From Obelidium mucronatum (taxonomy: Eukaryota > Chytridiomycota > Chytridiomycetes > Chytridiales > Chytriomycetaceae), in contig JAIVFH010000007.1 of NCBI GenBank assembly GCA_025765595.1, forward strand, positions 124,001 to 188,000: a DNA stretch of 64,000 bases. The letters are read 5' to 3'. The translations under genes were made by a program, and so were the position numbers. Below, piece after piece: positions 373 to 64,000 of the stretch. Positions within the stretch are counted from its first letter, which is position 1. Every line of letters starts with the position of its first letter. Under the pieces are notes generated by a model. The model was not told the DNA's origin. It made no database searches and saw only the letters and a program-made list of their open reading frames with translations.

Positions 373-2690
373 ATGAAGAGTTTCTTTGCATCCCTTGCTG
401 CCAAAAGCAAGTCCAGCGAGCGGGGACCCAATTCACCCTTGTCTCCGCCTCCTTCTCCATCGCTAAGGCCAAAGAGCCTTGCTCCAACAATCAAGACTGG
501 CAGGAAGGAGGTCATGCTTGCCTTGAATGGCAACAACGAACTGACCCAACTCGCTCTATTCAAGCGCCTCCACGATCAGTGGGATGAAGCCGTACTTGAA
601 GGAGTGAATATTGATGCTGACCATCGCATCAACCTCTCTGCCTTCCTTGCTGTCATGCACGGCTCTGCCAGCCTTGAAATTTCCGACCGCGAAGCCCTTG
701 ACCTGGCCCTGCAAGAGTCCATAAACATCTTAGCCAAGCGAGACAACGATGTCTACGGGGTAAACACCGGCTTTGGCGGGAATGCCGACATGCGATCAGA
801 CGATGCTCAAGCTGTTCAAGTCGGTTTAATCAAGCACTTGAATGCGGGTATGTCGAATCATATACACGATGCAACGATCACAAGAGGCGCGATGATCTTG
901 CGTGTCTTGTCGATGTCACGTGGCGGCTCTGCTGTCAGATTGGAGCTGATTGAGACGCTCATCAAGCTCATCGATGCGCATGTTTCTCCGTGTGTTCCAC
1001 TTCGCGGCTCTATTAGTGCCAGTGGAGACCTTATGCCCCTCTCGTATGTTGCCGGTTTGATCAGTGGTCGCTTCCAAAACGAGGAGAAAGCCGCAACAGG
1101 TTGACTTCGTCTTTTCTTCGATTCAATGTTTTCGCGATGTTTACCGTTTTTTAACACTGTGTTAATTAGGTCCGAAGGGAGAATTCCTCACTGGAAAACA
1201 AGCCCTTCAACTTGCGGGTGTCCCAGAGCCCATCACTTTTGCTGCCAAAGAAGCACTGGCACTGGTCAATGGAACATCCTTCTCTTGCTCTATGGCAGCC
1301 TCGTGCGTCCTGGAAGCCCATGTAAGTTGTGCCTCCTGTCAACAGTCAACAGCCAATCACTCAATTACAAACATCAACCCCCATCCAGTCCCTTGCCCTC
1401 CTGACTCAAGTACTCACTGCTTTTAGCACCGAAGCGCTTGCTGGGCATGTCGATGCCTTCGACCCTGCTGTGGCCAGGCTAAGACCACATCCTGGCCAAA
1501 CTGAGCTCTGCAACAACATCAGCTTCCTCCTTCGCGACTCTCAGCTTGTTGGAAACGACCGCTCAATCCTGGCGCCCCTTCTCTGGCGCAGAACTATGCC
1601 GCAAGACCGCTACAGCATCCGAACCGCTCCCCAATGGCTCTGTCCACTTGTTGAATGCCTGACTCAAGTCACAAAAACACTCGAGATTGAAATCAACTCG
1701 GTCACTGACAATCCACTCGTCGATGTGGAAAACAAAGCTATTCTTCACGCTGGAAACTTCCAGGCACTCTCTGTTGCTGACACCATGGACCGCCTGAGAC
1801 TCCAGCTTCACAATGCAGGACGTTTGATCTTTGCCCAGCATTCCGAGCTCATTAACCCGGCACTCAGTCAAGGACTGCCCGCGAATTTGGCGTGGGGTCA
1901 TCCGGGAACCGACTTTGGATTCAAAGGACTCGATGTCTCCATGGCATCGTATCTTTCAGAGCTGGGTGACTTGGCGCTGCCAATGTCTGTCCACGTACAG
2001 TCTGCAGAACTCCACAACCAGGCCGTCAACTCCTTGGCACTCATTTCGGCACGCAAGACGGCTCGCGCTATCGAGATTCTCCAAATGATGAGCGCGTGTT
2101 TAATTGCCTCTCTCTGTCAAGCTGCGGATCTTCGAGCCTTGGAATCAAACATCAGCAAGAGAATTCGTGAAGTTATTATCCGCTCATTAAAGTCGCTGCA
2201 AATCAAGACGGATTCCCTCGTTGACGTTGTAATGAATTCTTTCGCTTCAAAGTTGTTGGAACACCGCGAGATTGGATGGGCTGAGCGTATCGACTTGGCT
2301 ACAAACTACGCTGTTGGAATCGTGGTTGCTTCGCCAGATTGCAAGTGTACCATCACTAAACTGCAAACTTTTGGCGAACTCCTACGTCGTGACGTGTTGA
2401 ATGCTGTTCATGCTGCTCAGCAAGAGGCTGGCACTGGTCACGGGGACCGCGTCCTTTCGTCATCAGCAAAGAATGTGTACTTGCATATTCGTAAAACCAA
2501 GAAAATGTAAGTTTCGTGTGCCTTTCTTGTTTTGTCAACACATTTCTAAGGATTCTGTCTCGCCACAGTCCGATGTACAAGGATGCCAAAGAATTCAACG
2601 TGGGCCGTATGCTGGACCAAGTTCTTTCCTTTGTGCAAAACCGCCAGGAGTTGGATCAGGTCATCCTGGACTGTTTTGAGGGAATTGATG
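373..2690 (+). other. Domain: aromatic amino-acid ammonia-lyase, predicted tyrosine-type
   Basis: Family hallmarks of phenylalanine/tyrosine ammonia-lyases are present. The Ala-Ser-Gly triad that cyclises to the MIO cofactor lies in GSISASGDLMPLSYVAG (ASG codons 1018-1026). The catalytic-loop motif VYGVNTGFGG is at about 754. Active-site segments PQDRYSIRTAPQW, EINSVTDNPL and HNQAVNSLALISARKT follow. At the substrate-selectivity position, plant PAL has Phe-Leu (LIRFLNAG); this domain has His-Leu (LIKHLNAG, His codon 835-837), the pair found in bacterial tyrosine ammonia-lyases. The domain therefore probably makes p-coumarate from tyrosine, possibly cinnamate from phenylalanine as well. About 700 residues matches fungal PAL length. 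The first 50 residues are Ser/Pro/Lys-rich and may be a disordered tail; no signal peptide is obvious. Confidence 0.9.
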
Positions 2691-5600
2691 GACCAGCTCT
2701 TGCAACCTTCAACCCACGCCAATCTGGTGACTATAAACACGATTCCCCTGATTCAGACAGTGATTCAGTCACTGCACGTGATTCGCTATCATACGATCAC
2801 GTTGTCATGTACGCGCCACCTCTGCCCAGACAACGCAACGGATCCAAATCTGCGAACTCTGGCCAAGGGTCAAAACAGACCGCTTCTAAGCTGAAAGACT
2901 CTGTTTCTCTTCCTATGAAGCAAGGAAAGATGAGTGTTGTCGAAAAGGCGGCTGATTCTCCATCAGTATTGGAATTGGAACCTCCCATTACCTTTTCCCC
3001 ACCTCCACCACCGGCGGTTGTCGAAGCAGCTACAGCACCAGCAGCACAAGTACCAAACCCTGACGCCGACGCTGTGGCCATTGTTGGTATTGGTTGCAGA
3101 TACCCCGATGGCATCGAGTCCCTTGATGGCTTTTGGGATGTATTGGTGAATGCCAAGGATCTCATCACTGATATCCCCACTCAGACTCGTCAATCGTTTA
3201 AAAAAGTGCCGCCGTCCGTTCGCGGAGGATGGTTATCCACCGAAGTTGTTGAAGAATTCGATTGTGGCATGTTTGGAATGTCTCCCAGTGAGGCAAAATG
3301 CATGGATCCACAACACCGTATTATTATGGAAACAGTGTACAGTGCGCTTGAAGATGCGAATATTCCTGCCGATGCCTTGAGAGGAAGCGATACTGGTAAG
3401 TGTTTCCGTTTTGTAGACACTATTCAGTTCTCAACAGATTGTTAAATTACATCAGGTGTGTTCATTGGATGTCGTCCAACTGGTCACGACATTCGCATGA
3501 ACGACTTATATGCGTCCAAAAACCTTCCACGATACACAGCCGTTGGATCTGATTTGACTTTCTCGGCGAACCGGATCTCTTTCTGGTTGGACTTGAAAGG
3601 ACCATCGTTTAGTTTGACATCGGCTTGCAGCTCTGGAGGAGTTTTGTTGGATCTTGCTCTTCGCTCGCTTATTCAAGGACAATGCAAGACTGCCATCGTT
3701 GGAGCCATGTCTGTTATCAGTCACGACACAACGTTTGCTGTGCTTGAATCCGCTGGTAAGAAGTTTCGCTTGACTTTCTGTGAAATCCTCATTAACATTC
3801 CGTGTTCAAACTGTTAGGTATCCAAACTGTTGAAGCCGGACGTTGCGCATCCTATGACAAAGACGCTGATGGATATGTTCCAACAGAGTCTTCTGTTGTT
3901 TTCATTGTCAAGAGACTCGATGAGGCCGTCAAGAGCGGAGATCGCATTCTGGCTACAATCTCTGGAATCTCTGACCGCCACAAAGGAAAAGAAGGCCTTG
4001 GAATTACATACCCATGCAGCGAAGCCAACACTGATGCCATCAACGAAGTCTTGACACGAGCAAACTGGACCACGGATGATGTGGACTTTATCGAAGCCCA
4101 TGCTACTGGAACCAAGACTGGTGACCCAGTTGAAGCGGCTGCCATTGCCAAAGCATTCAAGAGCGGATTGCGAACCGAACCAGTCCAGATTGGTGCCGTC
4201 AAGTCTATTGTGGGACACACTGAAAACGTGGCTGCTTTGACTGCGATGGTGAAGGTTGTCCTTGCGATGCGTGAAAACTGTGATTCCACCTACACTGCTG
4301 GACCCACTGAGACTGAACCCGGCTGTTGAAAAGTCATTCAAGACCATTCCAGCTGTGATTCCTACAAGTCCCGTTTCGTGGCCTGCTGCGGCTGTGGATA
4401 AGAAATCGTTGGTGTTGGCTGCTGGTTTGGGAGGTTCAGTGATTGCTGTTGCGTTGAAGGCCGCTCCAGCTCCAGCCGCTGTTGATTTTGGGGCCTTGAA
4501 CGTCTGCAAAGTGCTTACCATCTCTGCTGCGTCAGCCACATCTTTGGCTGCGCTTCGCGACTCATATGTTGCGCTCATCTCCAAAGCGCCCGAGGAGGAC
4601 CTTGCGAGAATTACCGTGTCTTCCAACCTGGGTCGCCAGCACATGCGCCAGCGTCTTGCTCTTCCAGCGGAGAACAAGAAGGCATTGCTAACGGCTTTGG
4701 ATAAGTGGGTTCCAGTTAAGGCTCCATCAAAGAAGCAGCCTATTGTGTTTGTATTCCCAGGACAGGGATCATTGGACCTCAAAGCGTGTGCTGAATTATT
4801 CAAGAACGTTGTTGCATTCCGCTCTTGTATTGAGGTATGGATTTCTTGGATGACTTTGCTTAGTGTATCTAATTTGTTATGTTCAGGAGTGTACCGCTGC
4901 TCTCAACGAGCTCAAGTTCCCATCAAATATTCTGGACGATGTGTTCAGCGGAGCGTCAGAAGTTCGTGGAGAATACGAGCAAACAGTGCTCTTGATTCTG
5001 CAGTACTCGATTGCCAAGACTATGATCAAGATCGGTATCGAGCCCAGCTGTGTTGTTGGTCACAGTTTCGGAGAAATCGTTGCCACTACTGTTGCTGGTG
5101 GTTTGTCTTTGAAGGACGCGATTGTGCTCACCCACGAAAGACACAAGCCCATGCTCAACGCTGAATCCGCTGGTGTTATGGCGTCCATCTTTGCATCGCT
5201 GGAAGTTGTCCAATCTGCCATTGATGAAAGCGGGGCCCTCGTTGATGTTGCCGCTCATAACGGGAAAGAACAACACGTCATTTCTGGAGAAGAAGCGGAG
5301 GTTGAAAAGGTGTCGGAATTCCTTGCCAAGACGGGTATCCAGTGCCGCCGTTTGCCAAACATCATTGCCTTCCACTCTCGCCGAGTTGCGGCTGCCTCTG
5401 TCTCATTCCAAGCTGCCATGAAAGGAAAGTACAGCTGTGATGGAATTCAGGTTCCGCTGGCGTCTTGCTTGACCAAGACTCTCATGCCGATTGGATCCGC
5501 CATTCCGTTGAAGCACTGGGTCGACCATATTGTGAGCCCGGTGCTGTTTGCAAGTACCATATCTGCAATCGATGCCGAATACAAGAACGCCATTTACATT

Positions 5601-8600
5601 GATATCGGTAGCGGTTCTATTGGCTCACTTGTGAGACGTCACTTGACCACTCCAGGAGCTGATCGTCAATATCTCGGCGCCTTGTCTTCAATGGGCGCTG
5701 TTGTTGCCAACGTTTACACACGAGGAGTCGAAATCGACTGGCGTCAATTGCATGGTGATGCTCTTCCACGATCTGCGCTGACTGCTCTTCCACTGTACAA
5801 ATACTCACGTGTACCAGTCTGGGACGATAACGTGGGTGTAAATGCGTTGAGATTGCAGGAAGCAGCGGAAAAGATTCCCATGCAAGTTTCTGCTCCAACA
5901 TCTCAATCCAGAATCGCCGTTGTGGGAATGGCGGTGCGTATGCCTGGTGGAGTTGTCACTCTTGATCACCTTTGGAGAGTGTTGAAATCGGATGGTGCCG
6001 TTGCCGGTTCTCTTCCTTTGGACAGAATCGAATACCTATTCCAAAACCCGCAAGCTCGCAAGATAAAAGCTGCTTTTATCGATGAGGCGTTCATGATGGA
6101 TTTGGGAATGTTTGGAATTGCGGAAAGTGATGCACACCGCATTTCTCCACGATTGAGAGTTCAGTTGGAAACTGCATACAGAGCTGTGGAGTCTGCGAAC
6201 ATTATTCCGTCTGAAGTGGAGCCGTACCGCGCAGGAGTATTCAGCAACACTGCAGCTGGTTCTCATGATTTGTACTCCAACTACATGGCGTGGGAAGGTA
6301 TTGTAGAGAAGACGATCGGTGCGAATGGCCTATTTGTTCCGGAAGAAACTGGTTTTATCGCACAGAAGGTAATAGTTTCCAAGTTCGATCTTAATTGACA
6401 CTCTTTATTCAGGTTGGCTTCAAAACCGCCTACAACTACGCCATCAATGGATATTGCGAAAGCTCCATCACCATGCTTCAATGTGCCAGTGACGCTTTAC
6501 AGAGAAACCGTGTTGACGTTGCCTTGACAAATAGTGTTCGCCTCTTTGAAGTCGAAGGGCAGCTCCAGCAGGACTCGAACTTCAATGTTGTTGGAGGAGG
6601 TCTTGTAGGAGAGGCTTCTGTTTCCCTCGTGCTAAAGCGGTATGAAGACGCCGTTCGCGACAAGAACCATGTATATGCTGTACTTGGGGAAGCAACTCTT
6701 GCGAACGACTATGACCGCTCGAATGCGCGTGCAATGGCCACCTTTGAATCCGCCAAGGCATCTGGAATTGAACCCAGAGACATTGATCTCATCCTCTGGG
6801 GACCTACAGTTCCACGCCCAGGAGACGTTCGTCTGTTCACTGATACGCTTACTGACACGAACGGCATTAATGCTTCTTACGCACTAGCTCAATTCGGAAA
6901 GATTTTCCAAACGGGTGGTATTTTTGGTGTCGTTGCATCTAGTTTGATGATGCAGAACAGTGAGATTCCATCGTCTGACCCATCCAAGTTCCCAGCCATG
7001 TACTCAGCTGCCCAGCTCAAACAGATGAACGTCAGAACAGAAGGAGTAGAGTGGAGTACGAAGCCAGACGGCTTGCACAGAAATGCTGTTGTTGCGGTTG
7101 CTGGTCTCCATGGACCGACTGCTGCTGTGACTGTTTTGGAAAACGTCGCAATTGAAGGAGCCACTGTCATCCACCGTCCCCGAGATGTTGATCTGCTTGT
7201 AATTTCGGCAAATTCTTTGAAGTCTCTGGCTGCTCTTTGCGCTGATTACTGCGACTGCATTACTGCAAATGCTCCGATCTGGCCTGCTTTCTGTCAAACC
7301 ACACGTTTGTGCAGAGTTTCATTGAAATATAAGGTGTATTTTTTTGATTATAATCTATATTCTTCCATTTGCTGATTCCATATTTTCGATGTTCAGATTG
7401 CTGTCACTGGAACGACCACTTCACAGTTAAGCACCAAGTTGAAGAGGATGTCTCAGTCTATCTCTTCCAACGCGTCCAAAATTCAAACGGCTCTCATTGT
7501 TGAAGAAAAGCTCTTCGTTCCTCGGCCAAATCGCCAGCACATGGAAGCTTGATCAAAACCTTGCCATTTCGTCATTCAATGGAACACAAGTTCTGGAAGC
7601 AATCATCCAAAGTCTTGGATTAAAAGCTCAACTGGTCTCAATAGCTGCGTTGTCGACTGTGAAAAAGCCAGAAAACACACTTGTTGTTGGTGCTGGAAGC
7701 CCCGTTCACCTCGCTCGTGTGCGCTCGGCTTTACCAAAATCCTCCCGCTTTGTCGGCATTGTTGAAAAGATGGCCGTTGAGGAGGTGTTTGCAGCTCTCT
7801 ACGAGTTTTCAACCACGGCAGTGTTCAAGGGTTATGATGATCTGTTGGAGATGCCTCGATTCACACCTGTGCAACTTCCACTGTATGTGTTTGACCGTCA
7901 AGTTGTCAAAATGCCAGTTGTTCCCGGAATGATGGACCTGAACCAAATTGCAGAGTCCGAATATATCCCAACGACATTCAAGAATATGCCAGGCACCTTC
8001 GACCCGGTTGTACACCCAGTTCTGTTTGCTGCAAACGATTGGATGGTGGACCACAAGCTGCGCAACGGAAAAGTCATCCTCCCCGGAGCGGCACTGCTGA
8101 ATATGGCGCTTTTGGCTCTGCCAGCATCATCCTCTGTTGCCTCTCTCACTTTCGTTCGTGCCGTTTTGCTGAATGACAACAGCGATTCTGAGTTTGTTAT
8201 TATGCCAACTTCTGGCGTTGATTCGTTCTCTATTTCACAAGAGAAAGACGTGTACTGCCAGGGTACATTCTCTTCGCAGGCAACCTCGCCGAATGTGGTC
8301 AATATTTCCGCCAAGCTGGCAGCTTATCTTGCAGACGGCGAAGAGCTCGACCCACAATCTTGGTACAGCAGAGAAGAAGGTGCGATTGCGTACGGTCCTC
8401 GCTTCCAGAACGTCAAGATCCTTCGCTCATATGAGGATGGACTTGCTTTGGCGCGTGTTGACCTGCCTGCCAACCTATCCATTGGAGACTGGATCGTCCA
8501 CCCGACTCTGTTGGACGCGTGCTTCCACATGATGGCGATTGTTTCCACGGACGGTGCTCTTCCAGTTGGTGTCGAAAACGTCTGGGTATCCGATTCTGTC

Positions 8601-11600
8601 AGAAATGGAAAGTTCCCGACTTCCGTCTGGTGTCTTCGATCTCCTGTGGAAATGGAAAATGAACTTCAAACTGGAAACAGACTTGAAATTTTCGATGCCG
8701 CTTCTGGCGACTGTGTGATGGTTGTTGGTGCGTTGGTGGTCCAAGTTCCTGGAGGAGCTGCGAAACCCGAGCCGCTTGTTTGGACCAACAAGTGGACGCC
8801 TTTGGAAGTAACTGAAACTGCCGAGTCTCAGTCGATTTGGCTCTTGGTTGGCGACAATACGGAAGTGATGGATAAGCTTTCTCAAGAAACAAAGTTTGCT
8901 CGTGTTATTAAGGCGGATGATGACGTGTCTGCGATGATTGATGCAATTCCTTTCACTGAGTGGAGTCAAGGTGGGTGTATATTTATTCTTGAGGGTATTT
9001 TCCGGTTTATTGACTTTTGATACCTGCAGACCATGCGACGACTGTGCAAATCGTGTACTGCGGAAGCCTTGTTCCAGCCCTTGACGCTGCTACGGCCGAA
9101 GAATGGTGGAAGCACGGCGGCTACACGCTCTTCTTGAAGGTGTGGAATGAAATGACATCCAAGAGAGTCAAGTCGGTTCAGTCTATTGGTGCTGTGATTG
9201 TTACCCCGGCGCTCAACACTGACAACGGAGCTGTATCTCGCGATGCTGCTCTCACCGGGCTTATGCTGAACGTTCGACTGGAGCTGCGCAGTTCGGCAAA
9301 GGTTCTCTACTTGAATCCAGATAACTTGGCTCTGTCAATGGTGCAAGCGTCGTCCATCTTGAAGCATCCACAAGATTATGATTCTGGTTCATACTCGCTC
9401 GGCGGTTCGAGATTGGAGACCCTCAAGTTTGTTGCCCTTGAAAAGGCGCCAAGAAAGCAAAAGAGCGCCAAGCAGCTTTCGATCTTGGTGACTGGTGGCG
9501 TTGGAGGCCTGGCTAAAGCGCTTGCCGACCATTTCATTGCGCAAGGCCACAAAGTCACACTTGCCGGTCGTAGAGATGTGACTGATGAATCTGTTCAAGC
9601 AGCTCTCGCCGACATCAAGGACGACCGCGTCAGCTACATTAAGTTGGATGTAGGAGATGCTGTTCAAGTTGGTGCCGCGCTCAAGATGGGCAACTTCGAC
9701 GGTGTCATCCATACTGCTGGTGTTCTCGAGAACGGGCTGTTTGCCAACGTGACGGACGCGGTTCTCAAGAAGATTGGAAAACCAAAGGTAGAGGGAGCCT
9801 TGGCTATTCTAAACGGTCTCCCCAAGGATAAGCCATGCACGGTTGTGTTCACATCCTCCGTTGCTGCTGCTATCGGTTCGTTTGGACAAACCTGGTTACG
9901 TGATGGCAAACTCCGTGATGGACGCTCTTGCTATGGAGTACTCCAACACTGTGCCCAACTTGTGTGTGCGCTCTGTACAGCTTGGCTTGGTCGACGGTGT
10001 TGGAATGGCCGTCTCTGCAGCGGATACCCACACTTCCGGCGAAGTAACTATCGGCAAGAACTGACACGGTGGACATTGTTTCTTCAATTCTTTTGTCGCC
10101 ACTTGGATTCGCTCCATGTGTCATTGCTGCACCCTTGGGCAAGTTCTTGAAGTCGCTCGAAGCTCCTGCCGCCGCCAAACCTGTGATTACAGAAGCATTT
10201 CACTAAGGAGGACGTATTGGCGTTCATTGCCGAGCAGATGATGATTCTGATGGGCTTCGACGGAGACCTCGATGCCTCCGCTAGCTTCTCTGAATTAGGA
10301 GTGGACTCTGTGTCTTCCGTCAGTCTTCAACAAAGCGTTGAAAAGAAGTTTGGTATCACTGTTCCGCTTTTGGATCTGTTCCAGCTTACTTCCGACTCTC
10401 TGGCTGAAGAAATCTCGGAACGAATGATGGAGGCGTTGAGCAGAGAAGAAGAGCAGGAACATGAGTCCAACGGTGAGACTTTTAGTGGTGTGTTTGTTTT
10501 GTTTTGAGGACTAAATCGATGTTATTTTAAGATGCTGTCGTTTCTGCTGAACCGATTGCTGAACAAACTTTGGAGAGCACCAATGTCGGCGTTCTTAAGG
10601 AATTATGTAAGCCATTGATTGCTTTGATTTTTATGTACTCATCTGGATATTGTACTGCTAGTGCTCAAGAATGACATCTGCACAGTGCCTGATATGCTTG
10701 CTCACCACATGAGTCTTCGTCCAAATAATCCCCTGATCCAGTTGTCTGCTGATCCACAAGACTACATCTCGTTCGACAAGTTCGATAAACTGTCGAATGC
10801 AGCCATGAGTTTGCTTGTGTCCGCGTTCGATGGAATCGACTTGTCGACTCCCCCTGTTGTGGCCATCATGTCGGGAACGTGCCCAGAAGCCATGATTATC
10901 ACCATGGCGGTCTGGAAACTCGGATGGACGACTGCCATGCTGAACCCAAAGACTTCCGTTGAACTGCTGATTCGCCAGGCTCAGGCCTGTCACCGATTTC
11001 TGCTGTTGTGGCCTTTGACGAACGAGACATTACAGCCGCTACCACGGTCTCAGGAACGTTGGCCTCTCCACTGTTAATGGTGGATTCCGAAAAACTCTTC
11101 CATCCAGACGGAAAACTGAGCGATGTGTCTTCTGCCAAGCTCCCAGTCACGGCCGACACTCCGCTCTGTTTCCTCTTTTCTTCATCTTCTGTTGACGGAA
11201 CTTCTATTAAGGCGGCTCGACTTACTCATGGACAAGTGCTTGAAAACTGCAAGACCCGCGACTTATTGTGGAACATGCAGTCTCGTCATGGAAGAGTTCT
11301 GACTTGGTTGCCATTCTCGCATGTGATGGGACTGATTGTTGATTTCGTCAACAATGGTCTTGTCTCGGGTATGATGCTGTGTTTGAGACCCTCAAGAGAC
11401 CATCCAGCGACGCCTGACTTTTTGTTGGACGATGCCCTTACCATGAAACCCACCTTGATGTACACTGTGCCATGGGTGTTGGACTCCTGGGTGTCCACTT
11501 TTACTTCCGGAAAGGACTCTGCCAAGGTCGATGCTTCTTTGGACGTTCTTCGTGGAATGAAGGCAGTGATTGCGGGGGGTGCTCCTCTTCGACCAGCCAC

Positions 11601-12389
11601 CAGAAAGTTCTTGGTAGCAAAGGGCATTCATGTTGTTGAAGGAATGGGTGCAACCGAAGCTGCTGGAACCATCCTGACAGGTGTTCCTAAGTCTGGGCCC
11701 GGCCCAAGACGAGGAAGGTTGGATGACGCCTTTGCCTGGATTCCAAGTGACTTTGGAACCAGCGGCTGGCTGGCCATCTGAAAACATGGGAATGCTGGCA
11801 GTCAGCGCTCCTTCGGTATCCAAGCATGTTGTTTCTGCTCGTTCGGGAGAGAGTTGTGTGGGATTGGTTCCAAAGGACTTGTTGGCAGAGGATGGTCCTC
11901 TTCCGCACGGGCGATATTTTTGAGAAGAGAGTTGTAAGTCTCGGAGAAGGATCGGAGTTGGAGGAGTTCCGCTTTATTTCTCGAGCAGACGATGCAGTTA
12001 TGTTGAGGTGAGTTTTTTTTGACTATTCACAATACTCCTGACATCAAATTCTAATCTGCTTTCGACATTTCAGCACTGGTTTCGCTGTCGCTCCAAGGAT
12101 GCTGGAAGAAGCTCTTGTTGCTGACTTTGAGGAAATCACAGCCGCTTGTTTGCTTGGCGATTTTGGCGGAACCCCTCACCTGGTTCTTCAAGTCAATGCG
12201 GCCCAGTCTCTTCCATCTGGTGTTGAAATGGTGAAAAAGATTTCCTTCGACTGTGAGGAAATGTGCTCCAGAATTGCAGCTCAGGTGGAATCCGATGTTG
12301 TTGTCCTGGGATCCGACTTTGCTATTCCCCGCAGTGCCAAGAACACAATCTTGCGCGGTCTTCTTCGATCTACACTGTTTCAGAACTAG
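373..12389 (+). CDS. Aromatic ammonia-lyase / type I polyketide synthase / adenylating enzyme fusion (megasynthase)
   Basis: One multi-exon gene of about 3,700 codons. Order of domains: MIO-type aromatic amino-acid lyase (residues about 1-705), a Ser/Pro/acidic linker (about 705-830), KS, AT, decayed KS, remnant AT, DH, KR, ACP and a C-terminal ANL adenylation domain. The lyase-KS junction is continuous: the intron at 2507-2568 joins the lyase frame to a single open exon (2569-3395) that holds the lyase tail, the linker and the KS start. Introns read by eye are 1100-1169, 1322-1388, 2507-2568, 3396-3455, 3756-3817, 4835-4886, 6369-6412, 7334-7396, 8971-9028, 10473-10531, 10606-10661 and 12008-12073. 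Eight single-base frame corrections are needed, at about 4275, 7507, 9889, 10058, 10199, 10986, 11696 and 11899; most sit at short homopolymers. Known chemistry suggests a phenylpropanoid-primed polyketide; the actual product is unknown. Two or three separate genes are possible but less likely, because no stop codon or promoter-like gap separates the parts. Confidence 0.85.
3070..5830 (+). other. Domains: ketosynthase and acyltransferase (active-looking)
   Basis: The KS begins with AVAIVGIGCRYPDG and keeps the three catalytic sites: Cys in LTSACSSGG (codon about 3626), His in EAHATGT, and His in KSIVGHTEN. This marks a condensing domain with all its active residues. After a KS-AT linker, the AT starts with IVFVFPGQGS and has the serine-nucleophile motif GHSFGE (about 5058) and the AFHS segment near the second catalytic His. 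Substrate choice (malonyl or methylmalonyl) was not settled. A one-base frame correction is needed at the four-A run 4274-4277, just before the usual IPPTL segment. No ACP follows the AT, so this unit must use the ACP at the far end of the protein or one in trans. Confidence 0.85.
5905..7920 (+). other. Domains: decayed ketosynthase and truncated acyltransferase remnant
   Basis: A second KS fold starts with RIAVVGMAVRMPGG. It keeps a Cys at the nucleophile position (INGYCESSITML). Where an active KS has EAHGTGT it has LWGPTVPRPGD, and where an active KS has the GHxE motif it has GKIFQTGGIFG, so both catalytic histidines are gone. It is followed by a short region whose end reads like the C-terminus of an AT (LPLYVFDRQ, about 7880-7905) but which has no GHSxG motif. 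This looks like a duplicated KS-AT unit kept for structure. A one-base correction is needed at about 7507. The 6369-6412 intron in this part is only 44 bp. Confidence 0.75.
7960..8770 (+). other. Domain: dehydratase
   Basis: A product-template/DH hot-dog fold region. The first catalytic histidine is in WMVDHKLRNGKVILPG (about 8043-8090), which matches the family motif HxxxGxxxxP with one extra residue. The second half has the catalytic aspartate in HPTLLDACFHMM (about 8500-8530). Both residues are retained, so dehydration of beta-hydroxy intermediates is plausible. It lies between the AT remnant and the KR, the usual order in reducing type I PKSs. No methyltransferase or enoylreductase domain was seen between DH and KR, so partly reduced (unsaturated) chains would be expected. 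Confidence 0.75.
9460..10472 (+). other. Domains: ketoreductase and acyl carrier protein
   Basis: The KR has a Rossmann nucleotide site (LVTGGVGGLAKALA, about 9486) and the catalytic Ser (FTSSVAAAIG) and Tyr/Asn (GYVMANSVMDALA). The Tyr lies in a frame reached only by removing one base of the AAA run at 9888-9890. Further one-base corrections at about 10058 and 10199 carry the frame into the ACP. The ACP (10205-10440) has the phosphopantetheine serine in ELGVDSVSSVS (about 10306). Three corrections in about 310 bp is the densest cluster in the window; because all three are +1, the net change is a multiple of three. Confidence 0.8.
10662..12389 (+). other. Domain: C-terminal adenylate-forming (ANL/AMP-binding) domain
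   Basis: An ANL superfamily domain follows the ACP after two short introns. Visible motifs are a loop resembling the ATP P-loop (FLFSSSSVDGTSIKAARLTH, about 11170-11230; the usual Gly-rich form is altered but a Lys and the LTH ending remain), LTWLPFSHVMG, VEGMGATEAAGT, FRTGDIF (about 11901), ISRADDAVML, and an end segment IPRSAKNTILRGLL carrying the Lys expected near the C-terminus of the C-subdomain. One-base corrections are needed at about 10986 (missing base), 11696 and 11899. Known ANL domains activate carboxylic acids as acyl-AMP for loading on a carrier. Here the likely acid is the lyase product, which is inference. The gene ends with TAG at 12387-12389. Confidence 0.8.
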
Positions 12390-62923: not shown

Positions 62924-64000
62924 TCACTGGAATATCCCAAACGCAAACTTCCGGTCTTTTTCCAAAGCTTCTGAATACGACATATGCTCATCTTTAGAGT
63001 TGTGCAATGAATTGGAATGGAACAGTTGCTTGAAAAATTCCAATGCTTGATCGCTGCTGGACATGTCGACATCCAATTTACAAGCAATCTGTCTCATGGC
63101 CTCAGTCTCAACTCGCCAAACTTTTGTGTATTCCTCACACGCGTCCTGCAATGGTTCACGAGTCTCTTCTTCCGCCTTCAAGTACTTTGCAAGGCACTTT
63201 TCAAGCTCGCACGCCCCTTCCATAGCGGCATTCACACCTTGCCCAACAGGAGGAAAAGGAGCTGCAGCATCCCCAATCAAAACGCATCGCCCTGCCCAGA
63301 AACTGGAGCAAGACTTTGCCTTCCCCGTTGGCATACACGGTCTCTTGCTAAAAGCGTCAAACGCGTCGTCACTACAGTACTTGATAATATCTGGAAACTG
63401 CTGCACCAACAGACTTTTCGCTTCTTTGGCCGAAGAAAAGGTCCGCGGCCCACTCACTCCAACTTGACAAAACCAACGCGGATCATCTCTCCCTGATTCC
63501 CCATTAATAGCACCTGCAACCATCATCACCGGTGGCCGCGAGAAAATATGCAAATATTCTGGATCCAATTCTTGAGCTTGATCCTTCTTATCCATATGGA
63601 GCATAATGGAATGATTGCTCAACTGTGTCGAGACAACTCGGAAATCAGGAATTTGTTGCTGCAAGGCTCCACGAACAACACTGCCTCCACCATCCGCGCC
63701 AACAACCAAATCAAACTCCAAGACAGTTCCCTCCCCCTCTTCGCCTTTCACAACTTTGAATGACCCAGCACCAACGTTTATGTCCGTGACTTTTGCATTG
63801 AAATGAACAATGGAGTCAAGGGAACACCCCAATTTGTCAAGACGTTCTTGGAGCTCCTTCAAGAGGGCTCTGCAAATATCACCCCGAGAGCCCGTCCAGC
63901 CTTTACTTGGAAACTTTCCATCTAATCCCAAGGTCTCAGACGTTGGGAGGAAGTGAATGTGAAGTCCTTGGAAATGGATCAAGTTTTGGTCAAACACTTG
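62924..64000 (-). CDS. FAD-dependent monooxygenase (partial, cut by window edge)
   Basis: Minus strand; the N-terminal part with the FAD GxGxxG motif lies beyond 64000. Visible are ELQERLDKLGCSLDSIVHFN, FDLVVGADGGGSVVRGALQQ (DG motif), the second FAD contact region GRCVLIGDAAAPFPPVGQGV with NAAMEGACELEKCL, and a C-terminal helical tail ending RKFAFGIFQ (stop 62924-62926). The layout resembles aromatic-ring hydroxylases of the kynurenine 3-monooxygenase type. Substrate is unknown. It is about 50 kb from the lyase-PKS gene, so no functional tie is claimed. Confidence 0.8.
   Translation of the reverse strand, partial: QVFDQNLIHFQGLHIHFLPTSETLGLDGKFPSKGWTGSRGDICRALLKELQERLDKLGCSLDSIVHFNAKVTDINVGAGSFKVVKGEEGEGTVLEFDLVVGADGGGSVVRGALQQQIPDFRVVSTQLSNHSIMLHMDKKDQAQELDPEYLHIFSRPPVMMVAGAINGESGRDDPRWFCQVGVSGPRTFSSAKEAKSLLVQQFPDIIKYCSDDAFDAFSKRPCMPTGKAKSCSSFWAGRCVLIGDAAAPFPPVGQGVNAAMEGACELEKCLAKYLKAEEETREPLQDACEEYTKVWRVETEAMRQIACKLDVDMSSSDQALEFFKQLFHSNSLHNSKDEHMSYSEALEKDRKFAFGIFQ

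Follow-up and report, generated by a model that had tools for sequence, protein, structure and literature searches.

Does a single gene of Obelidium mucronatum, a water-living chytrid (Chytridiomycota), encode an aromatic ammonia-lyase together with a polyketide synthase (PKS) and an adenylating (ANL) domain, and could its product prepare its own starter? The gene lies in a window of 64,000 nt (assembly GCA_025765595.1, contig JAIVFH010000007.1, positions 124,001-188,000 of the forward strand). Coordinates are counted from the first letter of the window (position 1), and the copy within it is referred to as the window copy or C7. The gene runs on the + strand from an ATG at 373 to a stop at 12387-12389. 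Pfam searches over this region revealed Lyase_aromatic, KS, AT, PS-DH, KR, PP-binding and AMP-binding domains, and the domain order derived from the sequence is lyase-KS-AT-KS0-DH-KR-ACP-ANL (Table 1). Once spliced, the first four exons yield 941 residues, covering the lyase, the linker and the beginning of the KS, with zero stops and zero frame shifts. The NCBI model of the locus, P0001 (3129 aa, labeled 'partial'), joins lyase and PKS likewise. As judged from the sequence, the fusion of a MIO lyase, a type I PKS and an ANL domain in a single gene, proposed in the preliminary description, is real: it is borne out by the open spliced frame, the Pfam domains, two further genomic copies (C19 and C624) and three other genera. 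The GT..AG intron said to join the lyase frame to an exon running into the KS holds up as well, both in its coordinates and in the open translation.

Table 1. Features of the window copy.
Feature	Position	Strand	Evidence and remarks
Exon 1: N-terminal extension and first part of the MIO ammonia-lyase	373..1099	+	PF00221 E 2.4e-36; His-Leu selectivity pair; ASG triad 1018-1026
Exon 2: lyase	1170..1321	+	GT-AG joints, open translation, tblastn
Exon 3: lyase core and C-terminal part	1389..2506	+	PF00221 E 1.4e-76 (1326-2507); 89% identity to Siphonaria P0002
Intron near lyase end	2507..2568	+	Same place in C19, C624 and stand-alone lyase gene; spliced out in P0001
Exon 4: lyase tail, linker and KS1 start in one frame	2569..3395	+	Stop-free; PF00109 from residue 167 of 2570-3394
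Linker between lyase and KS1, ~128 aa, Ser/Pro/Asp-rich	2684..3067	+	Translation
KS1, catalytic Cys-His-His present	3068..4278	+	PF00109/PF02801, motif alignment; introns 3396-3455, 3756-3817
Acyltransferase (AT), GHSFGE and AFHS motifs	4740..5610	+	PF00698 E 1.1e-23 (4977-5609); start set by eye
KS2, KS0-like: Cys kept, both catalytic His lost	5907..7190	+	PF00109 E 3.9e-19 (first half); end approximate
Dehydratase (DH), His and Asp motifs present	8031..8687	+	PF14765 E 1.7e-17, PF21089 E 9.1e-6
Ketoreductase (KR)	9482..10060	+	PF08659 E 4.5e-22 (9482-9892); frame changes near 9893, 10057; end approximate
ACP, Ser in GVDS motif	10259..10393	+	PF00550 E 2.5e-10
ANL adenylating domain, in pieces	10649..12386	+	PF00501 E 5.8e-22, 9.5e-6; PF23562 weak, E 0.003, below cut-off

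The same genome contains a second, diverged copy of the fusion on contig C19, of which contig C624 is a partial near-copy. The proposed search of relatives for a lyase and a KS in one protein was productive: the same domain set is present in predicted proteins of Siphonaria (P0002), Podochytrium (P0003, P0004) and Chytriomyces (P0008). The window copy and P0002-P0004 carry the ANL domain at the C-terminus; in P0008 it lies between lyase and KS and is followed by a carrier motif ahead of KS1, the usual loading order. The co-linear proteins have one ACP. The protein search with the PKS region of P0002 resulted in 749 matches among 1981 candidates scored. Among the best 120 of these 749, the four chytrid sequences, counting the query, span its full length (100%), while the others, multimodular PKSs whose names, where given, are bacterial, cover 24-45% of it with identities of about 26-33%; these best 120 do not include P0008. 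Misassembly was rejected as very unlikely, because the second copy and the other genera share the fusion. The chance joining of two ORFs was also rejected, based on the stop-free spliced translation and the comparison of the linker frame with shuffled sequences (see below). The preliminary description knew of no enzyme with this domain set, and our literature search likewise found no published description of a lyase-PKS-ANL fusion. Papers joining ammonia lyase, polyketide synthase and chytrid are apparently unrelated, going by their titles and the first lines of their abstracts, and the one mention of ammonia-lyase in PMC11026467 concerns a separate plant enzyme.

The lyase part of the window copy displays the hallmarks of MIO ammonia-lyases, namely both PF00221 matches and the motifs YGVNTGFGG and SASGDL. 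Its selectivity pair is His-Leu. Of the 11 chytrid sequences covering this site, 9 have the pair (C7, C19, C624, P0002, P0003, P0125, P0126, P0129 and P0130) and the other two have Leu-Leu (P0004 and P0127). The 11 do not include contig C347, which nearly duplicates the P0126 gene and likewise has His-Leu. For the first exon, the top-ranking solved structure, 6at7 (PAL), shares HLNAG, and the next ones, 6f6t and 1w27, have FLNAG. A His89Phe replacement makes a phenylalanine lyase of a bacterial tyrosine lyase (PMC9002059), and the His found here is consistent with the tyrosine-type lyase suggested earlier. The motif can mislead: the flexirubin enzyme FlxA was misjudged from sequence at one of two selectivity motifs (PMC3992019).

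The window copy, P0002 and P0003 retain an intact MIO triad, whereas it is altered in three fused copies (DSG in C19, VSG in C624 and AGG in P0004). The altered triads could mean that the fused lyase is partly vestigial or structural, activity being lost copy by copy and the starter being supplied by a free lyase or by uptake into the cell. Consistent with this, stand-alone lyases with the ASG triad are present in Obelidium, Siphonaria and Podochytrium, and in the lyase tree they nest among the fused ones. Nevertheless, we consider a vestigial role unlikely, given the three intact triads and a lyase exon that is better conserved than any other piece of the gene.

In all five aligned fused proteins KS1 retains the catalytic Cys/His/His, and the AT, DH and ACP motifs are present. 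So are the KR Lys and Ser, while the KR Tyr is found in four of the five, the exception being the window model P0001, in which it is disrupted. The complement of a reducing type I PKS (KS, AT, DH, KR and ACP in one chain) is therefore there, intact in the relatives and interrupted by frame changes in the window copy. The AT motifs we take to be of the malonyl type. Neither an MDR-type enoylreductase nor a thioesterase family appears in the Pfam lists; PF13561, whose family title reads enoyl-ACP reductase, does match, but across the KR stretch. In KS2, both His residues are replaced and the Cys is kept in 5/5 proteins, as in a KS0, a non-condensing KS, and the KS2 profile matches KS chains across the whole domain (E 8e-36). 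Neither this second, degenerate KS nor the frame changes considered below figured in the preliminary description. Among solved structures, the ANL profile matched anthranilate-CoA ligase (E 7e-8), luciferases and feruloyl-CoA synthetase (E 4e-4), and the single-sequence search gave 2 weak matches (E 5e-4). These aryl-acid ligases weakly favor the acid-activating role assigned earlier, but FadD10, a fatty acid ligase, is also among the profile matches. The A3 segment, FSSSSV, presumably departs from the usual A3. AlphaFold models of KS2 (pLDDT 42) and ANL (pLDDT 45) are too poor for fold comparison.

Compared with P0002 by tblastn, the window copy has about eight intron-less frame changes between 4300 and 11905, those in the ANL domain lying near 10990, 11700 and 11905. 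The C19 copy has several, too, and because of them neither copy reads through as assembled. Together with the 'partial' NCBI model, these changes might indicate a window copy in decay, a pseudogene within a family that otherwise functions. However, no in-frame nonsense codon occurs in any of its coding segments, and the segments after frame changes are conserved as well as those before (e.g. 82% at 10996-11703). Moreover, near-identical contigs differ by one-base gaps, 25 between C624 and C19 (three non-overlapping alignments, 8.8 kb) and 4 in 4.6 kb between C347 and C7. Base-level assembly error is therefore a ready cause, although the gaps may also be real differences, and decay appears to us fairly improbable.

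Based on the domain content, we see roughly even chances that the gene encodes, or in the case of the window copy derives from, a single-chain megasynthase preparing its own starter. The MIO lyase would convert L-tyrosine (possibly phenylalanine) into p-coumarate (or cinnamate), and the C-terminal ANL domain would adenylate the acid and load it onto the ACP, from which it would pass to KS1. With the AT supplying malonyl units, KS1, KR and DH could carry out one or more rounds of extension, reduction and dehydration, while KS2, presumably non-condensing, may hold or relay the chain or assist the DH. This would yield an aryl-dienoic or aryl-polyenoic acid. Several observations count against this reading: the frame changes in the window copy and C19, the altered triads, the separate lyases in three genera, the unusual A3 segment and weak single-sequence matches of the ANL domain, and the single ACP of the co-linear proteins. 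The earlier idea of a whole early pathway in one gene cannot hold alike for every copy because of the altered triads and the frame changes in the window copy.

A styrylpyrone-type outcome, also considered previously, would have coumaroyl extended twice without reduction and lactonised to bisnoryangonin- or hispidin-like pyrones, KR and DH being skipped. Pyrone release needs no thioesterase, which counts in its favor. A Hypholoma orthologue that has KR and DH produced weak hispidin-like luminescence in yeast from caffeic acid (PMC9866795), and FnsA, which has DH and KR, makes naringenin (PMC9606254). On the other hand, hispidin synthases have neither KR nor DH (PMC9866795), and the KR and DH motifs, intact in the relatives, are kept across four genera, which argues for their use. 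The styrylpyrone route is thereby weakened and seems to us quite unlikely. Because KR and DH are present with their catalytic residues, a reduced aryl-(poly)enoic acid is the likelier predicted product.

The fungal ANL-PKS hybrids, hispidin synthase with its KR/DH-bearing orthologues (PMC9866795) and FnsA (PMC9606254), take cinnamic-type starters and resemble the chytrid protein in combining an aryl-acid ANL, KS, AT, ACP (and also DH and KR) in one chain. In contrast to the window fusion, the domain lists available for hispidin synthase and FnsA include neither a lyase nor a second KS. In these hybrids the ANL stands at the N-terminus and has a carrier of its own, whereas it is C-terminal in the window fusion and follows the lyase in P0008. 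The lyase-free arrangement starting with ANL-carrier-KS is thus seen neither in the window copy nor in P0002-P0004; P0008 has ANL-ACP-KS after the lyase. FnsA is described as ending in a thioesterase, whereas none was detected in the chytrid fusion. In the flexirubin pathway, the TAL FlxA and the 4-coumarate ligase FlxY start a KS/KR/DH polyene pathway (PMC3992019); the chytrid would have counterparts of this lyase, ligase, KS, KR and DH on one chain. In aryl polyene clusters, a chain length factor accompanies an active KS (PMC8358021), a pairing that loosely resembles KS1 and the dead KS2. However, the flexirubin and aryl polyene systems consist of separate type II proteins, KS-CLF among them, whereas the chytrid protein is a single type I chain that includes an AT. 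P0005 (annotated as a Candidatus Omnitrophota MAG) and P0006 combine an ANL (PF00501, PF23562) with one or two MIO lyases per chain, at 37-42% (lyase) and 28-29% (ANL) identity to P0002. Their Pfam lists contain no KS, and their lyases fall outside the chytrid clade in the tree.

The linker spans 65-136 aa across four co-linear proteins. Its coding frame is open in the window copy, the other two frames having 3 and 8 stops (3 and 11 in C19), and 0.46% of shuffled linkers (n=5000) lacked stops in a given frame. Were the intron near the lyase end kept in the transcript, one further codon would precede termination (Met-stop). The first intron bases give this Met-stop in C7, C19, C624 and the stand-alone lyase gene, and the NCBI model of the C19 lyase (P0128, 632 aa) stops exactly there. 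Even so, two separate proteins, a lyase released by a transcript end or intron retention and a PKS with its own start, are highly improbable given the frame open in two diverged copies, the single-protein models with differing linkers in four genera and the same intron lying inside the stand-alone lyase gene. The predicted protein of that gene continues past the intron, which is therefore an ordinary intron of the lyase tail.

A fuller and more tentative reading, to which we give a real but lesser chance, is that one polypeptide leads from tyrosine to an aryl (poly)enoic acid as a lyase-primed, self-sufficient aryl polyene-type synthase. It would have arisen by one fusion before the split of Obelidium, Siphonaria, Podochytrium and Chytriomyces, with the ANL domain moving later; intron retention at the lyase end could free the lyase, and a carotenoid-cleavage-type oxygenase may act on the product. 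A divergent oxygenase of this type is encoded 606 bp away, a lead rather than proof; the search for a biosynthetic gene cluster covered the next genes only.

Megasynthases normally rely on an external supply of starter acid. In the chytrid fusion, the predicted source of this acid, a lyase that would convert an amino acid to an aromatic starter, forms part of the PKS chain itself. Ammonia-lyases are tetramers and PKSs are dimers, and a tetrameric lyase on the chain of a dimeric PKS poses a structural question. The family also represents a megasynthase in which the starter-loading domain has shifted in position between related genera. To our knowledge, little polyketide chemistry has been described from Chytridiomycota, and the fusion may serve as a natural model for single-gene routes that lead from tyrosine to aryl polyketides.

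The window takes in bases 124001–188000 of contig C7 (574256 bp) in the 48.3-Mb genome of Obelidium mucronatum, a chytrid of the Chytriomycetaceae. The preliminary description had united an ammonia-lyase, a polyketide synthase (PKS) and an adenylating enzyme in one gene, and its coordinates proved correct. Four exons joined via GT-AG introns yield 941 stop-free residues. The 128-residue linker lies in an open frame, against 3 and 8 stops in the remaining frames. Pfam assigned Lyase_aromatic, KS, AT, a second KS (first half), DH, KR, PP-binding and then AMP-binding domains. The NCBI model (P0001, 'BDR26DRAFT_852386, partial [Obelidium mucronatum]') matches this exon, used as the query, at 100% identity.

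Sequence comparison indicates that the lyase-PKS-ANL fusion is not an artefact. A diverged copy on contig C19 (402532 bp) likewise has the order lyase-KS-AT-KS-DH-KR-ACP-ANL, and contig C624 (12305 bp) carries a partial copy of the C19 gene (94–97% identical). The lyase exon served as query against 5.8 billion proteins, restricted to long ones (4150 candidates, eight of them at E 1e-10); because the search requires shared 5-residue words, remote fusions could escape it. Five of the eight also contain KS domains, and their genera, Obelidium, Siphonaria, Podochytrium and Chytriomyces, all belong to the Chytriomycetaceae. Of the remaining three, two come from metagenome-type sources and join an ANL domain to a lyase, and one is a lyase-helicase model of Aspergillus. 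Other KS matches in the genome, among the matches listed, occur only on C223, C10 and C23.

Features of the fused genes, related proteins and neighbouring loci
Feature	Location	Strand	Remarks
Fused gene, window copy	window 373-12389		exons 373-1099, 1170-1321, 1389-2506, 2569-3395
Intronless frame changes, window copy vs P0002	window, near 4300, 7540, 9893, 10057, 10195, 10990, 11700, 11905		
Fused gene, diverged copy	C19:19667-31591		
Frame changes, diverged copy	C19, near 27704 and several sites downstream		some may coincide with introns
P0001, Obelidium			lyase + KS
P0002, Siphonaria sp. JEL0065			lyase + KS; NCBI label UNVERIFIED_CONTAM
P0003, P0004, Podochytrium sp. JEL0797			lyase + KS
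P0008, Chytriomyces confervae			lyase + KS
Carotenoid-cleavage-type oxygenase	C7:122019-123766 (L023:19-1766)	minus	PF03055, E 8e-65; best solved match E 3e-37
Steroid 5-alpha-reductase-type gene	C19:31684-32580 (L028:5684-6580)	minus	PF02544, E 8e-16; directly downstream of C19 copy, opposite strand
Stand-alone lyase paralogue	L029:3303-5884 (about C7:468303-470884)		
Copy of stand-alone paralogue	C347 (L031:8123-9451)		99% identical; ended by contig edge
Fungal type I fatty acid synthase-like ORF sets	C223 (L032), C10 (L033)		two, closely alike (by eye)
FAD-dependent monooxygenase fragment	window 62927-64000	minus	PF01494, E 1e-13; crosses window end

The nine stops in the aligned segments of the window copy are all intronic or just past a frame change. 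One-base gaps separate near-identical contigs of this assembly, and we prefer to read the frame changes as assembly error; decay of the window copy is a live rival.

Catalytic motifs were aligned across the five fused proteins, the window's own model P0001 among them. All five retain the KS1 Cys, His and His, AT GHSFGE and AFHS, DH His and Asp, KR Lys and Ser, the ACP Ser and the ANL A3 segment FSSSSV. The KR Tyr is present in four, the exception being P0001, where a frame change disrupts it; ANL ATEA, TGD and the late Lys occur in all four proteins extending that far. The second KS (KS2) keeps its Cys in all five, with both His substituted, and its profile matches whole KS chains at E 8e-36. 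Neither a thioesterase family nor an MDR-type enoylreductase (PF00107, PF08240, PF13602) appears in the five Pfam lists; the match to PF13561, titled enoyl-ACP reductase, falls on the KR stretch. The MIO triad reads ASG in the window copy and in its stand-alone paralogue, likewise in C347, P0002, P0003 and the further lyases P0125, P0126, P0127, P0129 and P0130; it is altered in the C19 copy (DSG), C624 (VSG) and P0004 (AGG). Of the 11 rows covering the selectivity pair (near-copy C347 left out of the count), 9 have His-Leu, while P0004 and P0127 have Leu-Leu.

Domain order is permuted in Chytriomyces. Between P0002 and P0008, blastp aligned the lyase (459–699 with 1–241), KS-to-ACP (827–3189 with 909–3229) and ANL (3254–3804 with 267–810). 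This segment order places the Chytriomyces ANL and a further carrier (GLDS motif, by eye) between lyase and KS1; the P0008 model is truncated, starting within the lyase. P0008 thus shares the loading order given for hispidin synthase, AMP-ACP-KS-AT-ACP (PMC9866795), and for FnsA, A-T-KS-AT-DH-KR-ACP-TE (PMC9606254), but has a lyase ahead of it. In the KS tree, the KS1s of the five fused proteins form one clade and the KS2s another (P0008 KS2 has a long branch and its placement is unsure), which suggests that the PKS core was probably inherited from a common ancestor.

In a lyase tree of 34 rows, the 11 chytrid lyases form a single clade (support 100/100), separate from the sampled Dikarya, plant and metagenomic sequences; the 20 outside references were hand-picked from 120 among the matches listed. 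Within this clade, the Siphonaria and Obelidium stand-alone lyases group as a pair, and the Podochytrium one clusters with the Podochytrium fused lyases. Grouping all three stand-alone lyases was rejected (p-AU 4e-43), as was grouping the five fused lyases (p-AU 6e-5; both with 13 rows, without P0008); the groups were picked after viewing the tree, so these values are indicative. The simplest history would be a fused ancestor from which stand-alone lyases arose later, at least twice. The Siphonaria stand-alone lyase has an acidic SDSDSVTA tail resembling the start of the window linker. Gene conversion is another possible source of the tree pattern. In P0129 (Nowakowskiella sp. JEL0407, 1219 aa), the lyase is preceded by a FAD-enzyme-like stretch of ~580 aa (by eye). 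This model stops at the residues of the junction intron in related genes and so may be cut short; a PKS may lie downstream.

The carotenoid-cleavage-type gene, one of at least three PF03055-type genes in the genome, sits immediately beyond the window edge and is divergent from the fused gene, their start codons 606 bp apart. The two may share a promoter, and the neighbour might act as a partner enzyme or else form retinal; none was seen beside the C19 copy.

In the proposed chemistry, the lyase would convert Tyr to coumarate, ANL would load it via coumaroyl-AMP onto ACP, KS1 and AT would extend the chain, KR would reduce and DH dehydrate it, and KS2 would be non-condensing. As there is no ER, the chain should remain unsaturated, giving an aryl-enoic or polyenoic acid. 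Flexirubin provides the closest worked-out precedent: TAL and 4-coumarate ligase supply separate KS, KR and DH enzymes (PMC3992019), here joined in one chain. A styrylpyrone is a less likely product, still conceivable because a basidiomycete orthologue bearing KR/DH gave weak hispidin-like luminescence (PMC9866795).

Among the matches listed in the open-licence literature, mostly judged by abstract, we recognised no description of a lyase-PKS fusion. To our knowledge, no described enzyme has this domain set. The section of the FnsA paper naming five characterised fungal NRPS-PKS enzymes leaves a lyase domain unmentioned (PMC9606254). We rate the fused protein as a member of the known aryl-primed ANL-PKS kind, and its lyase-bearing domain set as a novel variation.
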